Positions 8,604 through 36,676 of a stretch of 36,676 nucleotides of DNA are shown here, piece by piece. Below the pieces are notes generated by a model. That model saw nothing but the letters and a program-made list of their open reading frames with translations, was not told the origin of the DNA and made no database searches. Source of the stretch: a virus; IMG/VR virus record IMGVR_UViG_3300043568_000021, positions 1 through 36,676 of that record; one strand, 5' to 3'. The stretch's first letter is position 1; every line of letters begins with the position of its first letter. The position numbers were made by a program, and so were the translations under genes.

Positions 8604-8621
8604 TTATTTTAAATATTTTTA
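8604..8621. repeat. 18-bp A+T element, copy 2
   Basis: Exact second copy of the 18-mer at 7513-7530. Here it covers the region just upstream of and including the candidate -35 box of the rightward promoter, where A+T tracts can act as UP elements. Confidence 0.45.
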
Positions 8622-8655
8622 CTTTTTTTTGGTTTTAGGTTATAGTTTCACCTAA
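8618..8655 (+). promoter_or_regulatory. Candidate rightward promoter with palindromic operator
   Basis: TTTACT (8618-8623) and TATAGT (8641-8646) are 17 bp apart. A perfect inverted repeat, TTAGGT 8635-8640 and ACCTAA 8650-8655, brackets the -10 box, and its right arm touches the AAGGAGG ribosome site (8654-8660). A protein bound there would block polymerase, so this is a plausible autoregulatory operator for the Cro-like protein encoded ten bases downstream. The mRNA leader would be very short. The upper part overlaps the second copy of the 18-bp A+T element (8604-8621). Confidence 0.55.
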
Positions 8656-8869: not shown

Positions 8870-9646
8870 ATGCACTATTACCAACATAACATAGCGGATT
8901 ATCGGAAAGATACTTCCCATCTGAGTTTGTTAGAACATGGTATTTATCGGCAACTATTGGATAGCTACTATTTGGACGAAAAACCATTACCTAGTGACAT
9001 TTCCAAGGTTATGCGCTCGCATAGCATTCGCAATGCGGATGAAGAACTTGCGCTTAAAAACGTACTGACTGACTTCTTTGAATTAACCAAAAAAGGGTAT
9101 ATTCATAAGCGATGCGATGAAACGATTGCTCAGTACCATGGCAAATCCGACAAAGCTAGAGCTAGTGCGTTAGCCCGTTGGGGCAATAAGGATAAGGGTG
9201 CTGATGCGTTCGCATTAAAACCGCATACCGAACGCAATGCTAACCATAAACCAATAACCAATAACCATAAACCAATAATAAAGACTACTACTCCTGACGG
9301 AGTTTTGGATTCTGTTTTTCAAGACTATAAAAAGTTAAGAGAAAAGAAAAAAGCACCCATTACAGAAACCGTTTTAAAGGGCTTAGAGCGTGAAGCTAAG
9401 AAAGCCAATATGTCACTTCAATCTGTAATGGAACTCTGTTGTGAGCGTGGTTGGAGTGGGTTTAAAGCCGATTGGATTATTACTGAAGTCGAAAAGACTA
9501 AAGAACTACCTTTAGGTAACGATCAACAGATAGAAGCCGCATATAGGGCTGAATGCGGTGATCCTGCTAAATCAAGGTTTAATAATTACTGGGAAATGAA
9601 AAATTTTGTGATTGCACAGCGTGAAAAAAGACGATTGGCTATATAG
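8870..9646 (+). CDS. DUF1376 (YdaU-like) replication protein
   Basis: This 258-residue protein has an N-terminal DUF1376 domain (HYYQHNIADYRKDTSHLSL, LEHGIYRQLLD.YY, P.P.D), then a helical part to about residue 105, a polar linker (about 108-142), and a C-terminal domain with GLEREAKKANMSL and CCERGWSGFKADW. DUF1376 proteins occupy the lambda O position in many phages and are thought to start replication. The ATG at 8870 follows the regulator stop with one base between; an upstream in-frame ATG at 8825 lies inside the regulator and lacks the family N-terminus. The linker DNA holds a tandem heptamer array (9244-9278), as lambda O holds the lambda origin. Confidence 0.8.
   Translation: MHYYQHNIADYRKDTSHLSLLEHGIYRQLLDSYYLDEKPLPSDISKVMRSHSIRNADEELALKNVLTDFFELTKKGYIHKRCDETIAQYHGKSDKARASALARWGNKDKGADAFALKPHTERNANHKPITNNHKPIIKTTTPDGVLDSVFQDYKKLREKKKAPITETVLKGLEREAKKANMSLQSVMELCCERGWSGFKADWIITEVEKTKELPLGNDQQIEAAYRAECGDPAKSRFNNYWEMKNFVIAQREKRRLAI
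9244..9278 (+). repeat. Five tandem CCAWWAA heptamers, candidate replication origin
   Basis: Five 7-bp units lie head to tail: CCATAAA, CCAATAA, CCAATAA, CCATAAA, CCAATAA. They form two identical 17-mers (9241-9257 and 9262-9278). An A+T-rich stretch (AATAATAAAG) and a small hairpin, ACTCC 9290-9294 with GGAGT 9299-9303, follow. The array encodes the linker NHKPITNNHKPI of the DUF1376 protein. Iterons inside the initiator gene next to A+T-rich DNA are how the lambda origin is built, so this is a candidate origin. Confidence 0.5.
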
Positions 9647-11671: not shown

Positions 11672-11905
11672 ATGGCTGATGTAAACGATAAAGAAGCTTG
11701 TAATTCTTGTCGATTTTTTTCTTTAGGCGATAGGGGCATGGGAATGTGCCAAAGATATCCTGCCGCAATAAACGCATCTAGCAATGGCTGGTGCGGTGAA
11801 TTTTCAATTTCTAGTCCTGCATTTCAAGCTTTAGTACAGTCTATGTCTGAGCCAATGGTTATTCCTGAAGTTAAAAAATCAAGAGGAAGGCCAAAAAAAG
11901 CATGA
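11672..11905 (+). CDS. Cys4 (zinc-ribbon-like) protein with C-terminal AT-hook
   Basis: This 77-residue protein has cysteines at 10, 13, 26 and 41 (CNSC, MC, WCGEF), spaced as in a small zinc site, and ends KKSRGRPKKA, a textbook AT-hook (RGRP core) for A+T minor-groove binding. The N-terminal pattern 'C.SCRFF....G.C.RYPA...WCGEF' is frequent in small phage and bacterial proteins. A DNA-binding or regulatory role on this A+T-rich genome is plausible. GGAG lies eight bases before the ATG; the stop overlaps the GroES start. Confidence 0.65.
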   Translation: MADVNDKEACNSCRFFSLGDRGMGMCQRYPAAINASSNGWCGEFSISSPAFQALVQSMSEPMVIPEVKKSRGRPKKA

Positions 11906-12213
11906 AATTAACGCCAATGAACGACAAAATTGTTGTAAAGCCTGATGTTAGAAAGCTTTCCAGCGTAATTATTGTTAATAACAAAGAAGTAGAAAACATG
12001 GGCACAGTTATAGCTGTAGGTCCTGGCAAAAAGCTACCAAATGGGCGCAGAGAAGATATGCCTGTTGAAGTGGGTGCAAGAATTCGCTTTGGCACTATGA
12101 ATGACGACCATGGCGAAGAATATCTAAAATACTTTAAATACGAAGAAAATGGCACAAAATACCTAGTCATGAGCTGGCAAGACGTTTGTTTTGTGGAAGA
12201 ACAAAATGTTTAA
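11902..12213 (+). CDS. Phage GroES-like co-chaperonin
   Basis: This 103-residue protein aligns with GroES through its length: TPMNDKIVVKPD (4-15, cf. RPLHDRVIVK), a mobile-loop region with hydrophobic SVIIV (21-25), MGTVIAVGPGKKLPNG (33-48), MPVEVGARIRFG (53-64) and KYLVMSWQDVCFV (86-98). GroES caps GroEL and closes its folding chamber. A phage version may help fold the coat protein, as T4 gp31 and RB49 CocO do. The mobile loop lacks the usual GG before the hydrophobic triplet. It overlaps both neighbours. Confidence 0.85.
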   Translation: MKLTPMNDKIVVKPDVRKLSSVIIVNNKEVENMGTVIAVGPGKKLPNGRREDMPVEVGARIRFGTMNDDHGEEYLKYFKYEENGTKYLVMSWQDVCFVEEQNV

Positions 12214-12826: not shown

Positions 12827-12988
12827 ATGATTAAATTAGAGTTAACCATTGAGGAAATTAACTACATTCTTATGTCTGTAGGCAAAAATCCTTATGCTGA
12901 ATGCGCACCTTTGGTAAACAAAATCCACGCACAAGCACAGCCACAGGTACAAACTAAGGCAGAGGCATCTGATGAAAGCCAAGGTTAA
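12827..12988 (+). CDS. Conserved 53-residue phage protein
   Basis: The frame encodes MIKLELTIEEINYILMSVGK...PLVNKIHAQAQPQVQ and a polar tail. Small phage proteins starting 'MKLELTVEEVN.IL..LG..P......L..KI..QAQPQ' are widespread beside terminase-proximal genes. It has one amphipathic helix pair and no known function. It starts two bases after the previous stop and overlaps the ParB-like gene by 17 bases. Confidence 0.7.
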   Translation: MIKLELTIEEINYILMSVGKNPYAECAPLVNKIHAQAQPQVQTKAEASDESQG

Positions 12989-13625
12989 TGCTTCTCAGAT
13001 AGTTAAAATTGATACATTAAAGAACCACGATAGGAATTATCGTGAGCACCATGACGACCAAATAGCTCATTTAATGCAAAGTATTAAGCAAAATGGGTTT
13101 TATAAGAACATTGTGGTTGCCCAAGACAATACTATTTTGGCTGGACACGGCATTATTAAAGCCGCTCGTAAGCTAGGTATGACCGAAATAAGTATTATCA
13201 AGCTGGACATTGATCCTGAAAGTCCACAAGCTTTAAAGATATTAGCTGGTGATAACGAAGTAGGTCGATTAGCTGAAATAGATGATAGATCATTATCAGA
13301 AATTCTTAAAAAGGTTAAAGACGACGATATAGATGGTCTTTTGGGTACTGGTTACGATGAAATGATGTTGGCTAACTTGGTTATGGTTACTCGACATGGC
13401 AAAGAAATAGCTAATATTAACGAAGCGGCTGAATGGGTAGGTATGCCTGACTACCAAGCCAAGGAAGATCCTATAAAAATTGCTATTCAGTTTAGGTCTG
13501 AAGAAGATAGGGAGCAATTTGCTACATTAACCAAAATGAAAATGGGTAAAGAAGGCGGCACGACTTGGTCTTGCTGGTGGCCACCTAGGGAAAACGAGGA
13601 CATTTCATCCGTAAAGTATGAATAA
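12972..13625 (+). CDS. ParB/Srx-fold nuclease-like protein
   Basis: This 217-residue protein carries a ParB N-terminal-type domain at about 8-100: QIVKIDTLKNHDRNYREH, IAHLMQSIKQNGFYKNIVV, NTILAGHGIIKAARKLGM and KLDID, then a helical part and a C-terminal region with WSCWWPP. Members of this superfamily are CTPases, nucleases or sulfiredoxin-like; stand-alone phage copies often lie beside terminase and DNA-modification genes. No HTH or ParA partner is seen, so plasmid-like partition is unlikely. GAGG is six bases before the ATG. It overlaps the glycosyltransferase gene by eight bases. Confidence 0.75.
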   Translation: MKAKVNASQIVKIDTLKNHDRNYREHHDDQIAHLMQSIKQNGFYKNIVVAQDNTILAGHGIIKAARKLGMTEISIIKLDIDPESPQALKILAGDNEVGRLAEIDDRSLSEILKKVKDDDIDGLLGTGYDEMMLANLVMVTRHGKEIANINEAAEWVGMPDYQAKEDPIKIAIQFRSEEDREQFATLTKMKMGKEGGTTWSCWWPPRENEDISSVKYE

Positions 13626-14496
13626 GCCTGAGTATCCTATTTATGTCATATCTAAAGGTAGGCACGACTGTTGCTTAACGGCTAAATTCTTTGTAGAAGA
13701 TGGCGTGGATTTTAAAATAGTTGTAGAACCACAAGAAAAACAGCTTTATGCTGACATTTATGGTGTAGATAAGATATTAGTCCTGCCTTTTCAAAATTTA
13801 GGACTTGGCAGTATTCCAGCTAGGAATTGGTGCTGGGAACATTCTAAGGAAGCTGGACACGCTAGGCATTGGATATTTGACGATAACATTGCTATGGTGC
13901 GTAGGCTACATAAAGGCAAACGCATACGCTGTAACACCAATATAGCTTTAAAAGCGGCAGAAGACTTTATTAATCGTTATGAAAATATAGCCATTGGTGG
14001 GTTAAATTACACATTCTTTGCGGTAGGCAAAAAGCCACCATTTAACCTTAATGTCCATGTTTACAGTTGTCTATGTATAAAGAACGATCTAGACTATCGT
14101 TGGAGAGGTAGATATAACGAGGACACCGATTTATGCCTACAAGTACTAAGTGGCGGTTGGTGTACCGTGTTATTCAATGCTTTCCTAATAGATAAAATGG
14201 CTACCATGACTATGAAAGGTGGTAATGCCGATGTTCTTTATAAAGGTGATGGCAGATTAAAGATGGCTAGGTCGCTGGAAAGACTATGGCCGGGTGTAGT
14301 TACAGTTAATCGTAGGTTTGATAGACCACAACACATTATTAAAGATGCTTGGGGAAAGTTTGACACAGAGCTAATACGCCGTAAGGATATAGACTGGGAA
14401 GAAGTAGCTAAAAAAAGTTATGAAATTAAACTAAAGCAAGTTAAAGCTGAAGTAAAAAGCGAAGAATTAAAGGAAATGCTAAAAAATGCAACTTGA
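13618..14496 (+). CDS. TET-associated-type glycosyltransferase (TAGT-like, GT-A fold)
   Basis: This 292-residue protein starts PIYVISKGRHD (7-17), then VVEPQEK (35-41), IPARNWCWEHS (66-76), HWIFDDNIAMVRR (84-96, Asp88-Asp89 as the probable metal motif), and GRYNEDTDLCLQVLSGG (164-180). This order fits GT-A glycosyltransferases of the TAGT group, predicted to glycosylate oxidised methyl-pyrimidines in phage DNA. A ParB-like gene precedes it and the terminase pair follows, an arrangement I recall for TAGT loci. No TET/JBP oxygenase or DNA methylase is seen here, so the substrate is open. It could also modify a different base or a protein. Confidence 0.7.
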   Translation: MNKPEYPIYVISKGRHDCCLTAKFFVEDGVDFKIVVEPQEKQLYADIYGVDKILVLPFQNLGLGSIPARNWCWEHSKEAGHARHWIFDDNIAMVRRLHKGKRIRCNTNIALKAAEDFINRYENIAIGGLNYTFFAVGKKPPFNLNVHVYSCLCIKNDLDYRWRGRYNEDTDLCLQVLSGGWCTVLFNAFLIDKMATMTMKGGNADVLYKGDGRLKMARSLERLWPGVVTVNRRFDRPQHIIKDAWGKFDTELIRRKDIDWEEVAKKSYEIKLKQVKAEVKSEELKEMLKNAT

Positions 14497-33973: not shown

Positions 33974-36138
33974 TGGCAACTCAAGAATATGATATTAATG
34001 ATTTATTAAAAAATATTAAATCACCAACAGCTACTGCTGGTAGTGCTAAAGAATATGACATTAATTCATTATTAACTGATTTACAGCCATATAAAGAGCA
34101 ATCTTTAACGGCTGGTGCTGGCCCTAGACCTTCAAATATATTAAAAGGTGCAGAGTTTTTTGCTAGAAATCCAATAGGATCACAAGTAGTTAATACTCCT
34201 TTTGTTAAGGATGTGGCTAAAGGCGTTGCTTCTGTGCTGGATACTACAGTTGGCTCTGTTATACCTGGCACAGTTGGCTATGTGACACAAGCCGTTGTTA
34301 GGCCATTTACAACTCCTGAAAGATCGGCTGAAATTGCACAAAATATATCAGGTGCTATAGATAAGCCATTTGGTAAGGTTTTTGGTATTACAGAAGATCC
34401 TGCTTACAAAAATGAAGCAACAAATCGTCTTATGCAATATATTGGCGAAAATATGGATAAAGGCGCAGATTGGCTTTCTAAGCAAACTGGTTTACCAAAA
34501 GAAGATGTGGCCAATATGATGAATAGTGTTGGTATTGTAGGTGGCTATCAAGTCGGAAAAGTTACCATACCAACATCAATAAAAAACACAGCAGAAAAAT
34601 TAATAACTGGTAAAGAAAAACCAACTGTTTATCAAGAGCCTACTGGAGTAATAGCTGATTTAAACAGACAATTTGAAGAAGCAAAAGCAAATTTATCAAG
34701 AGAGCCAGCACCAACAGTTGCGGTTGGCGGTGCGCCTGGTACTGCGCCAATTACACCAAAAGCGGTTGAGGTTCTTGATCCAGCCACAGGAAAGCCAGTA
34801 GTAATGGCCCAAGAAGCCCCTGCGCTCAATCCTGCATTAGCTCAAAAAGTATCACAAGTAGAGCAAGCTGGCGGTACTGTAAATCCTGATGCGGTTGCAA
34901 GACAAAATAAAGCTTTGTCGGTAGATCCACGCCTACAGCTTACTGAAGGCCAAGCCTTGCAAGATGCAAACCTTATTTCAATGGAAAGAAATGATAGGGG
35001 CATTAAGGAACAACTTGTATCTAAATTTAATGAACAAAATCAAATACTTAAAGAGCGTGCAGAAATTTACAAAAATGAGTTTACGCCTGATGTAAAAGGT
35101 CTTTCTTATGTTGAAAACGCAACTAACGCTATTAATGCTGTTGATGATTTAATTAAAAAAAATGAAAATGCCGCAAAAGCTAAGTATGAGGATTTGAAAA
35201 AACTTGGTGGCGGCAAATTAGAGTTAGACGGCAAATCTTTTGGCACAACGGCTAGACAGGCCCTTGGCGCAGAAGATATACAAGATTTTGTTCCAAGCCA
35301 AATTATGAAGCGTATTGATGATTATGCTGATGGCAAAAAACAAATGAATCTTAACCTTTTTGAAGGTTTAAGAACTCAAATTGCTAGAGAGTCAAGAAAA
35401 GCTGAAAGGGCTGGTGATGGCAACACAGTTTATGCTCTTAAAGTTGTACGAAATGAATTAGAGCAAATGCCTTTGGCAAATGAAGCTGGGGCTATTAAAT
35501 CTGTTGCGGATGAAGCTAGAGCATTATTTAAATCAAATAGAGATTTAGAAGCTAATAATGCGTTCTATGGTCAAGCCAGTCGTGGTGGCCTAGATAGTAA
35601 AGACTTTGTTCCAAAAGTGGCATTTAGGTCTAAAAACGATTATTTTGGTCAAGCAATGGAAGTTCTTAATAGAGATCCTGTTGCAAAGCAAAACTTTGCT
35701 CAAGGCACTATGGACTATATGATTCGTGAATCTACAGATGGTAGCGGCAATCTAAACCCAATGAAAATGGCTAATTTTATTGAAGATTTGCAGTTAAATG
35801 GTAGGCTAGAGCCGTTATTTGGCAAAGAAAATTCTGCAAAATTATTAAATTACGCTGAAGTATCCAGGTTCACAAAATCTACGCCTGAAGGCTCATTTGT
35901 AAACTTCTCCAATACTGCACCAGCGGCGGCAAATCTTATTAGTAGATATGGTTCAGCGGCGGCTGAAGTTGCTGGAGCAAGCCTTAACATACCTTTTGTT
36001 GGTGAGGCGGTAAGAACTGGCTCACAGTTTATGGAAAAACGCAGAACTAGGAAACAAGCTGAAAAAGCTACAGAGTTTGGTGCTGGCGTAGAGCAAAACA
36101 AAAAAGGCAATAAAATTTCAGACATATTGAAGGAATAA
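33973..36138 (+). CDS. Putative ejection/internal virion protein, third of three
   Basis: This 721-residue protein is predicted mostly helical. The N-terminus holds two copies of a short motif, EYDINDLLKNI (5-15) and EYDINSLLTDL (27-37), then a small hydrophobic region (about 68-100, KDVAKGVASVLDTTVGSVIPG) that could contact membrane, a linker with PAPTVAVGGAPGTAP, and a long charged helical C-terminal part. No peptidoglycan-hydrolase motif is seen. It is in the P22 gp16 position and is likely ejected with DNA. GGAGG precedes the start. The C-terminal part is repeated at 3-1514 because the contig ends overlap. Confidence 0.62.
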   Translation: MATQEYDINDLLKNIKSPTATAGSAKEYDINSLLTDLQPYKEQSLTAGAGPRPSNILKGAEFFARNPIGSQVVNTPFVKDVAKGVASVLDTTVGSVIPGTVGYVTQAVVRPFTTPERSAEIAQNISGAIDKPFGKVFGITEDPAYKNEATNRLMQYIGENMDKGADWLSKQTGLPKEDVANMMNSVGIVGGYQVGKVTIPTSIKNTAEKLITGKEKPTVYQEPTGVIADLNRQFEEAKANLSREPAPTVAVGGAPGTAPITPKAVEVLDPATGKPVVMAQEAPALNPALAQKVSQVEQAGGTVNPDAVARQNKALSVDPRLQLTEGQALQDANLISMERNDRGIKEQLVSKFNEQNQILKERAEIYKNEFTPDVKGLSYVENATNAINAVDDLIKKNENAAKAKYEDLKKLGGGKLELDGKSFGTTARQALGAEDIQDFVPSQIMKRIDDYADGKKQMNLNLFEGLRTQIARESRKAERAGDGNTVYALKVVRNELEQMPLANEAGAIKSVADEARALFKSNRDLEANNAFYGQASRGGLDSKDFVPKVAFRSKNDYFGQAMEVLNRDPVAKQNFAQGTMDYMIRESTDGSGNLNPMKMANFIEDLQLNGRLEPLFGKENSAKLLNYAEVSRFTKSTPEGSFVNFSNTAPAAANLISRYGSAAAEVAGASLNIPFVGEAVRTGSQFMEKRRTRKQAEKATEFGAGVEQNKKGNKISDILKE

Positions 36139-36676
36139 AATAATGACAGTCTTACTATCGCCTATTGGCAACTCTATGACACCTTTTGTGGGTTTGGACA
36201 CTTTGCCTTTGGCTGGTGGACTGTTATATACCTATCAAGCTGGTTCTACCACTCCATTAACTAGCTATACAAGTTCTGCTGGAGATATACCCTGTGCCAA
36301 TCCTATTGTTTTAGGCGTAAACGGCATTGCGCCTACAGCCATTTGGCTTACAAGCGGAGTATCTTATAAGTTTGTATTGGCTACTGCTGATAATGTTACT
36401 TTATTAACATACGACAATATTGCTGGAATTCCATCTTCTGCCGACATATTAAATGTGCCTAGTGGCGCAATTTTGGTATGGTCAGGCTCAATTGCTACTG
36501 TACCAAGTGGCTATTTATTGTGTAATGGACAAAACGGAACGCCTAATTTACAAGACGGTTTTGTAGTTGGTGCTGGAAATACATTTTCCGTAAACGCTAC
36601 AGGCGGCTTTGCTTCTTCAGGCGTAATGACAAGCATAGGAACTAATACGCCTCTGTATTATTCTTTGGCTTTCATA
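34625..36676. repeat. Terminal overlap of the circular contig, copy 2
   Basis: Second copy of 1-2052, covering the C-terminal part of the last ejection gene and the first 178 codons of the tail fibre gene. Differences from copy 1 are at 34689, 36557 and 36586. Confidence 0.95.
36143..36676 (+). CDS. Tail fibre protein, 3'-truncated second copy
   Basis: This is the same gene as 1519-2064, cut by the right edge four codons before its stop (stop included). At residue 139 it has Gly (GGT) where the other copy has Ser (AGT). It also has a silent T in the following TTT codon. Not a separate gene on the circular genome. Confidence 0.92.
   Translation, partial: MTVLLSPIGNSMTPFVGLDTLPLAGGLLYTYQAGSTTPLTSYTSSAGDIPCANPIVLGVNGIAPTAIWLTSGVSYKFVLATADNVTLLTYDNIAGIPSSADILNVPSGAILVWSGSIATVPSGYLLCNGQNGTPNLQDGFVVGAGNTFSVNATGGFASSGVMTSIGTNTPLYYSLAFI

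Follow-up and report, generated by a model that had tools for sequence, protein, structure and literature searches.

In phage lambda, the initiator protein O binds iterons located within its own gene, and the adjoining A+T-rich tract opens (PMC7466680). The locus described here shares several features with oriLambda in gene O and with the origins of Stx phages (PMC7466680), which likewise lie in the middle of the initiator gene, flanked by a DNA-binding N-terminal part and a C-terminal part, and in which palindromic iterons are followed by an A+T-rich tract. It differs in the N-terminal domain, which is of the O type in lambda and a DUF1376 domain here, and in iteron spacing, about 20-24 bp in oriLambda and 11 bp here. 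In addition, the A+T-rich tract here is a strict 7-bp array and is accompanied by a conserved hairpin, unlike that of oriLambda. Plasmids of the RepA_N type, for example pSK41, also carry their origin centrally within rep (PMC5703833, PMC7145576). The pSK41-type genes resemble the present one in having a winged-helix N-terminal domain, semi-palindromic in-gene iterons and a variable C-terminal domain. However, the structural match is middling, no sequence relation was shown, and our locus is a phage gene with other iterons and two arrays. The Rac prophage of Escherichia coli carries a known active origin, oriJ (PMC3945230). Its YdaU-YdaV pair consists of a DUF1376 protein followed by a DnaC-like ATPase, but ydaU lacks the 7-bp array found in our gene. 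Among openly available papers naming DUF1376, judged by titles, abstracts and searched passages, none concerned replication origins.

We analyzed the whole 36,676-nucleotide viral record IMGVR_UViG_3300043568_000021, hereafter the window. A direct repeat joins its two ends (positions 1-2052 and 34625-36676, identical at 2049 of 2052 bases), and the record therefore represents a circular or terminally redundant genome of ~34.6 kb.

A DUF1376 gene carries five heptamers between its two domains

The gene under study (Table 1) encodes a protein that passed the Pfam cut-off for PF07120 (DUF1376) with 99.5 bits against 30.1, and DUF1376 was the sole family reported by the Pfam search. Comparison of the N-terminal domain model by VIA-align gave middling scores among many winged helices, with Z values of 6.6 for the ORC2 winged helix, 5.4 for the plasmid initiator RepA (4pt7), 4.8 for a Rep-DNA structure (5kbj) and 4.5 for the DnaD N-terminal domain. 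Foldseek, run with the model of the whole protein, returned no match with E <= 0.001. Residues 124-206 resemble phrog_678, annotated as "replication initiation O-like", and residues 110-123 form a linker with AlphaFold pLDDT below 50. The repeats lie between two domains, where the sequence-only reading had placed them. Members of phrog_678 combine a lambda-O-type N-terminal part with the C-terminal part seen in the window protein, an architecture that would represent a natural domain exchange among initiators. Over the DNA-binding domain, neither BLASTP nor hhalign matched the DUF1376 protein to lambda O, and no direct homology between the two was found.

Table 1. Coordinates of the features of the DUF1376 gene in the window.
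Feature	Position	Strand	Remarks
DUF1376 replication-initiator gene, 258 aa, holding the putative origin	8870..9646	+	Pfam DUF1376, 1.5e-28; PHROG "primosomal protein", "replication initiation O-like"
DUF1376 domain, predicted winged helix, residues 2-87	8873..9130	+	AF2 pLDDT mostly >90
Three TGCGnnCGCA-like sites, 11-bp spacing	9012..9043	+	Within the domain-coding region
Codons of the last domain helix's basic tail, KSDKARASALARW	9143..9181	+	Predicted helix 80-105
11-bp array, degenerate: TGCGTTCGCA / TAAAACCGCA / ACCGAACGCA	9205..9236	+	Putative initiator-binding iterons; recognised mainly via relatives
7-bp array, 5x CCAWWAA	9244..9278	+	Putative unwinding / single-strand loading element
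Hairpin ACTC-C(TGAC)G-GAGT, ACTCCTGACGGAGT	9290..9303		Stem compensatory in relatives; loop C-T[AG]NN-G

The five heptamers reported from the sequence are exact and stand head to tail: CCATAAA at 9244, CCAATAA at 9251 and 9258, CCATAAA at 9265 and CCAATAA at 9272. So do the two identical 17-mers (TAACCATAAACCAATAA), which begin at 9241 and 9262, offset by 21 bp. The A+T-rich DNA said to lie next to the array holds loosely, the A+T-rich part being the array itself. On both strands of the window, this array was the sole run of more than three CCA with 7-bp spacing. The longest run of CCAWWAA was two in first-order Markov windows (n = 200), and a run of five units appeared in only one of 5,000 gene shuffles preserving protein and codon usage, which rules out a chance origin.

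The 7-bp period is selected at the DNA level in relatives

The first sample of relatives comprised 80 viral loci from a whole-protein search. As one of its search patterns fell in the linker, later samples were collected with the N-terminal domain as sole query (genomes and viruses), followed by two other subfamilies. Of 159 non-redundant genes, 135 carried three or more CCA spaced by exactly 7 bp after the domain, compared with none of 422 control ORFs taken from these loci. Even non-redundant genes share descent, and counts of this kind do not represent independent events. We then scored self-similarity by lag against codon shuffles made within each gene, with protein and codon usage held fixed. 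Applied to lambda O, this test recovered the iterons at codons 117-142 of 300. Lag 7 was significant in 130 of the 159 genes and in 91 of 125 held-out genes, compared with 2/159 for lag 9 and 9/159 for lag 12. In-frame duplication would favour multiples of three, unlike the unit lengths of 7 and 11.

Successive 7-bp units fall in each of the three reading frames, and a run of CCAATAA would bring TAA into frame once every three units. Among 244 units of the CCANTAA/TAG type, none occupied the stop-making phase and all fell in the two harmless ones, the stop-prone phase being filled mainly by CCATAAA (124) and CCAAGAA (51). Unit variants therefore track the reading frame so as to avoid stops, which indicates that the DNA is selected. 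Furthermore, all 15 genes encoding NHKPITNNHKP share an identical stretch of 33 nt, out of 24,576 possible. Codon shuffles, frame rule and the identical 33 nt agree with the earlier suggestion that the DNA rather than the protein is under selection, and they refute a protein-level repeat as the main cause.

As anticipated by the sequence-only reading, nucleotide comparison showed that linker repeats persist while unit and codon phase vary. Perfect runs of period 7 were made of CCAAGAA in Acinetobacter phage AbP2 and of ACCCAAT in Vibrio phage 1.052, and Polynucleobacter prophages use CACCAGA with the same period; a minority of relatives have a period of 6 or 8 bp. Linker peptides are diverse (NHKP, NTQYP, TQDT, NQEP) and the 7-bp DNA period is constant. 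Orientation is constant too, with CCA on the coding strand and no gene bearing TGG runs, and the GC content of the array was below that of its gene in 212 of 229 cases. The array is not universal across PF07120: it was absent from 22 of 27 genes (present in 5/27) of a broad genome sample and from the distant E. coli protein YdaU. It is a property of the MxYY..IGDY clade of DUF1376.

An 11-bp array upstream matches the tail of the domain helix

Immediately upstream of the 7-mers, many relatives carry 11-mers, an array that the sequence-only reading overlooked. These are mostly palindromic, with arms TGCG/CGCA (TGCGnnCGCA), AACG/CGTT (AACGnnCGTT) or TCGTGCACGA, and the window's own 11-mers are degenerate; other relatives show AACCCA at 11-bp steps. 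Lag 11 was significant against codon shuffles in 59 of 159 genes, and in 52 of 125 held-out genes. Sites of the matching class were also found within the domain-coding region, in 44 of 111 genes with an "RW" tail (15.6 expected) and 54 of 73 with an "AGKxSA" tail (18.8 expected).

The class of the 11-mer followed the class of the helix tail in all 210 genes in which both were called: "..RW" went with TGCGnnCGCA (101/101), "AG.xSA" with AACGnnCGTT (70/70) and "GGRP" with AACCCA (39/39). A further 53 genes of the three tail classes yielded no 11-mer call, about half of the GGRP-tail genes being without a clear one. For these pooled counts, the GKRGAxxRW subclass (8 genes, no call) was set aside, and the regexes had been broadened a little once the held-out result was known. 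When patterns fixed beforehand on the first sample were tried on held-out genes, matches were obtained for 59 of 61 AG[KR]xS[AV] genes (class B), 22 of 34 RW genes (no cross-matches) and 9 of 17 GGR[PK] genes, where the one cross-match occurred in a gene also bearing AGRASA. Limiting the calls to the DNA beyond the tail codons left them unchanged. In a tree built from the domain core (residues 1-80), tail class required at least 17 changes and 11-mer class 17, against ~90 for shuffled tails.

Two mismatches were allowed in the 11-mer patterns, and many codon-shuffled genes still scored (246/560 shuffles in class A, 141/380 in class B), an effect of the conservation of the encoded peptides. The 11-mer excess over shuffles is clear, but the class agreement cannot be credited to the DNA alone. 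Physical linkage could also partly explain the perfect match, since the tail codons adjoin the array.

A hairpin downstream shows paired changes

The small hairpin noticed next to the array is real, and comparison with relatives revealed paired changes in its stem that had escaped the sequence-only reading. At TPxGV/APxGV codons, the two free third bases complemented each other in every one of 23 cases (8.6 expected), forming T-A, G-C and A-T pairs. Hairpins with a C-T[AG]NN-G loop begin mostly 0-30 nt past the 7-mers in relatives. At least four of five further stem pairs were present in 77 genes, against 10.3 expected from codon shuffles, which makes a search artefact unlikely. Among the 94 genes having three or more further pairs, 58 distinct left arms occurred. 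Mismatches comprised 12 G-T and 16 A-C (4 and 12 in the best stems); a hairpin in the RNA of the coding strand is not favoured, as G-T pairs were not enriched over A-C. CTG and CTA are recognition triplets of bacterial primases, and loops of the type C-[GT]NNA-G, the opposite strand of this hairpin, are stable in DNA. We take both likenesses as leads only.

Replication genes adjoin the DUF1376 gene in relatives

In six records of relatives, a helicase or loader gene adjoins the DUF1376 gene. The next gene encodes a DnaB helicase in AbP2 and Seahorse, a DnaC/IstB-like loader in Vibrio 1.052, MR15 and Rac (YdaV), and a primase/helicase in a Pseudomonas aeruginosa plasmid record. In phiAC-1, P19250A and Mcat13 it matched no helicase or loader family, and of the window proteins scanned, none was recognised as a helicase or loader. 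Upstream of the DUF1376 gene of the window lies a Cro/YdaS-like gene. Further upstream, positions 8614-8648 carry minus-strand ACC repeats with a 72-77% inverted match to the array, possibly an operator or a chance resemblance. Elsewhere, the window encodes a Cpn10 co-chaperonin (11902-12213, Pfam 4e-11), and, at 12972-14496, a TET-associated glycosyltransferase (TAGT, 7.6e-49) preceded by a ParB_N-domain protein, which suggests that the DNA contains modified bases.

Cumulative GC skew had been put forward as a check of the origin. On the 34.6-kb circle, the detrended minimum fell at 9298, and at 9094 after masking the array. It is thus near the array, but confounded by a switch of transcription near 8.6 kb. 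In AbP2 the minimum fits the DUF1376 linker; in Seahorse and P19250A it does not. We give the skew little weight because of this switch and because two of the three other genomes disagree. It is unusable as proof of an origin, as G-free arrays draw the minimum to themselves and transcription direction confounds it.

A putative origin within the initiator gene

Computation showed that both arrays are selected at the DNA level; it also showed the order in which they stand, the match of tail and site, the paired changes in the hairpin and the replication neighbourhood. Taken together with the lambda-like architecture already proposed from the sequence and backed by the repeats in relatives, these features lead us to infer that the linker of the DUF1376 gene is probably the phage's lambda-like theta origin, with the 11-mers as initiator sites and the 7-mers as unwinding tract. 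In the proposed mechanism, the predicted winged-helix domain of the DUF1376 protein, together with the basic helix tail, would contact the 11-bp sites, which lie one helical turn apart on the same face of the DNA and whose class fits that of the tail. The complex would then open the adjoining G-poor, A+T-rich 7-bp array, whose regular repeat on one strand would probably provide a track for binding along one of the opened strands. The C-terminal part, common to O-like initiators, may recruit DnaB via a phage or host loader. Finally, the hairpin beyond the 7-mers could come into play where single-stranded DNA is exposed, perhaps by assisting priming or the placement of the helicase. The 7-mers suit an opening tract because they lie 3' of the 11-mers, are G-poor and low in GC, have a constant orientation and accompany all tail classes. 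Alternatively, they may be the principal double-stranded sites bound by the domain core.

The arrays might instead be operators that have no origin activity and through which DUF1376 or another phage repressor regulates the gene. Dimeric DNA-binding regulators typically have palindromic sites such as the 11-mers, and a Cro/YdaS-like gene lies upstream, but the sites lie 350-400 bp inside the coding region, distant from the promoter. A G-poor 7-mer array with a hairpin would also be unusual for operators, and helicase or loader genes adjoin the gene in relatives; we regard this reading as unlikely. Action of the arrays in mRNA, controlling translation or transcription, would account for the constant strand orientation and for a hairpin, yet G-T pairs do not exceed A-C in the stems, and palindromic sites at 11-bp spacing suit double-stranded DNA, which makes this explanation highly improbable.

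A third possibility is that the arrays are recombination joints, providing short homology for exchange of the N- and C-terminal halves by phage annealing recombinases. The two parts are indeed mosaic around the linker (L015/L022 versus the window; L006 versus the window) and the window phage encodes a Sak annealing protein. Homology alone, however, leaves unexplained an exact 7-bp period with variable units, as well as the frame-dependent variants, the tail/11-mer match and the hairpin, and we consider this very unlikely. Selection of a low-complexity protein linker (NHKPITN, NQEP) with the DNA repeat as a by-product is scarcely credible: the linker is predicted to be disordered and its peptides appear repetitive, but shuffling codons with the protein kept intact destroyed the signal in 130/159 genes, and the period stays while the peptides vary widely.

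Extending the origin reading to the whole MxYY..IGDY clade, we tentatively suggest, at somewhat less than even probability, that these DUF1376 proteins are distinct phage initiators with a three-part in-gene origin. It would consist of class-specific palindromic 11-mers read by the tail (a recognition code switched ~17 times), a directional and almost universal track of 7-mers at which the strands open, and a hairpin whose loop starts with CT[AG] (C-[GT]NNA-G on the other strand) and which marks the site of priming or helicase loading. An origin in the linker would assign a role to a widespread "domain of unknown function" and yield an origin map that can be tested, and the origins of hundreds of uncultured phages and prophages would become locatable by sequence. 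The tail/11-mer match would offer a natural set for studying joint specificity change of initiators and origins. One DNA stretch would thus code for protein and carry three DNA elements, a double duty visible in the frame-dependent repeat variants.

Two further observations concern other DUF1376 genes. On the NDM-1 plasmid pSWBY1 (L460:20629-22262), repM has as neighbours a YdaU-family gene and the gene of an ATP-binding protein, the latter two being a phage-type replication pair on a resistance plasmid; the idea of plasmids replicating by DUF1376 alone is unsupported, as pSWBY1 carries repM too. In the linker of Rac ydaU (L242:6120-6977), we noted by eye three TGTTYRAACA-like sequences ~30 bp apart.
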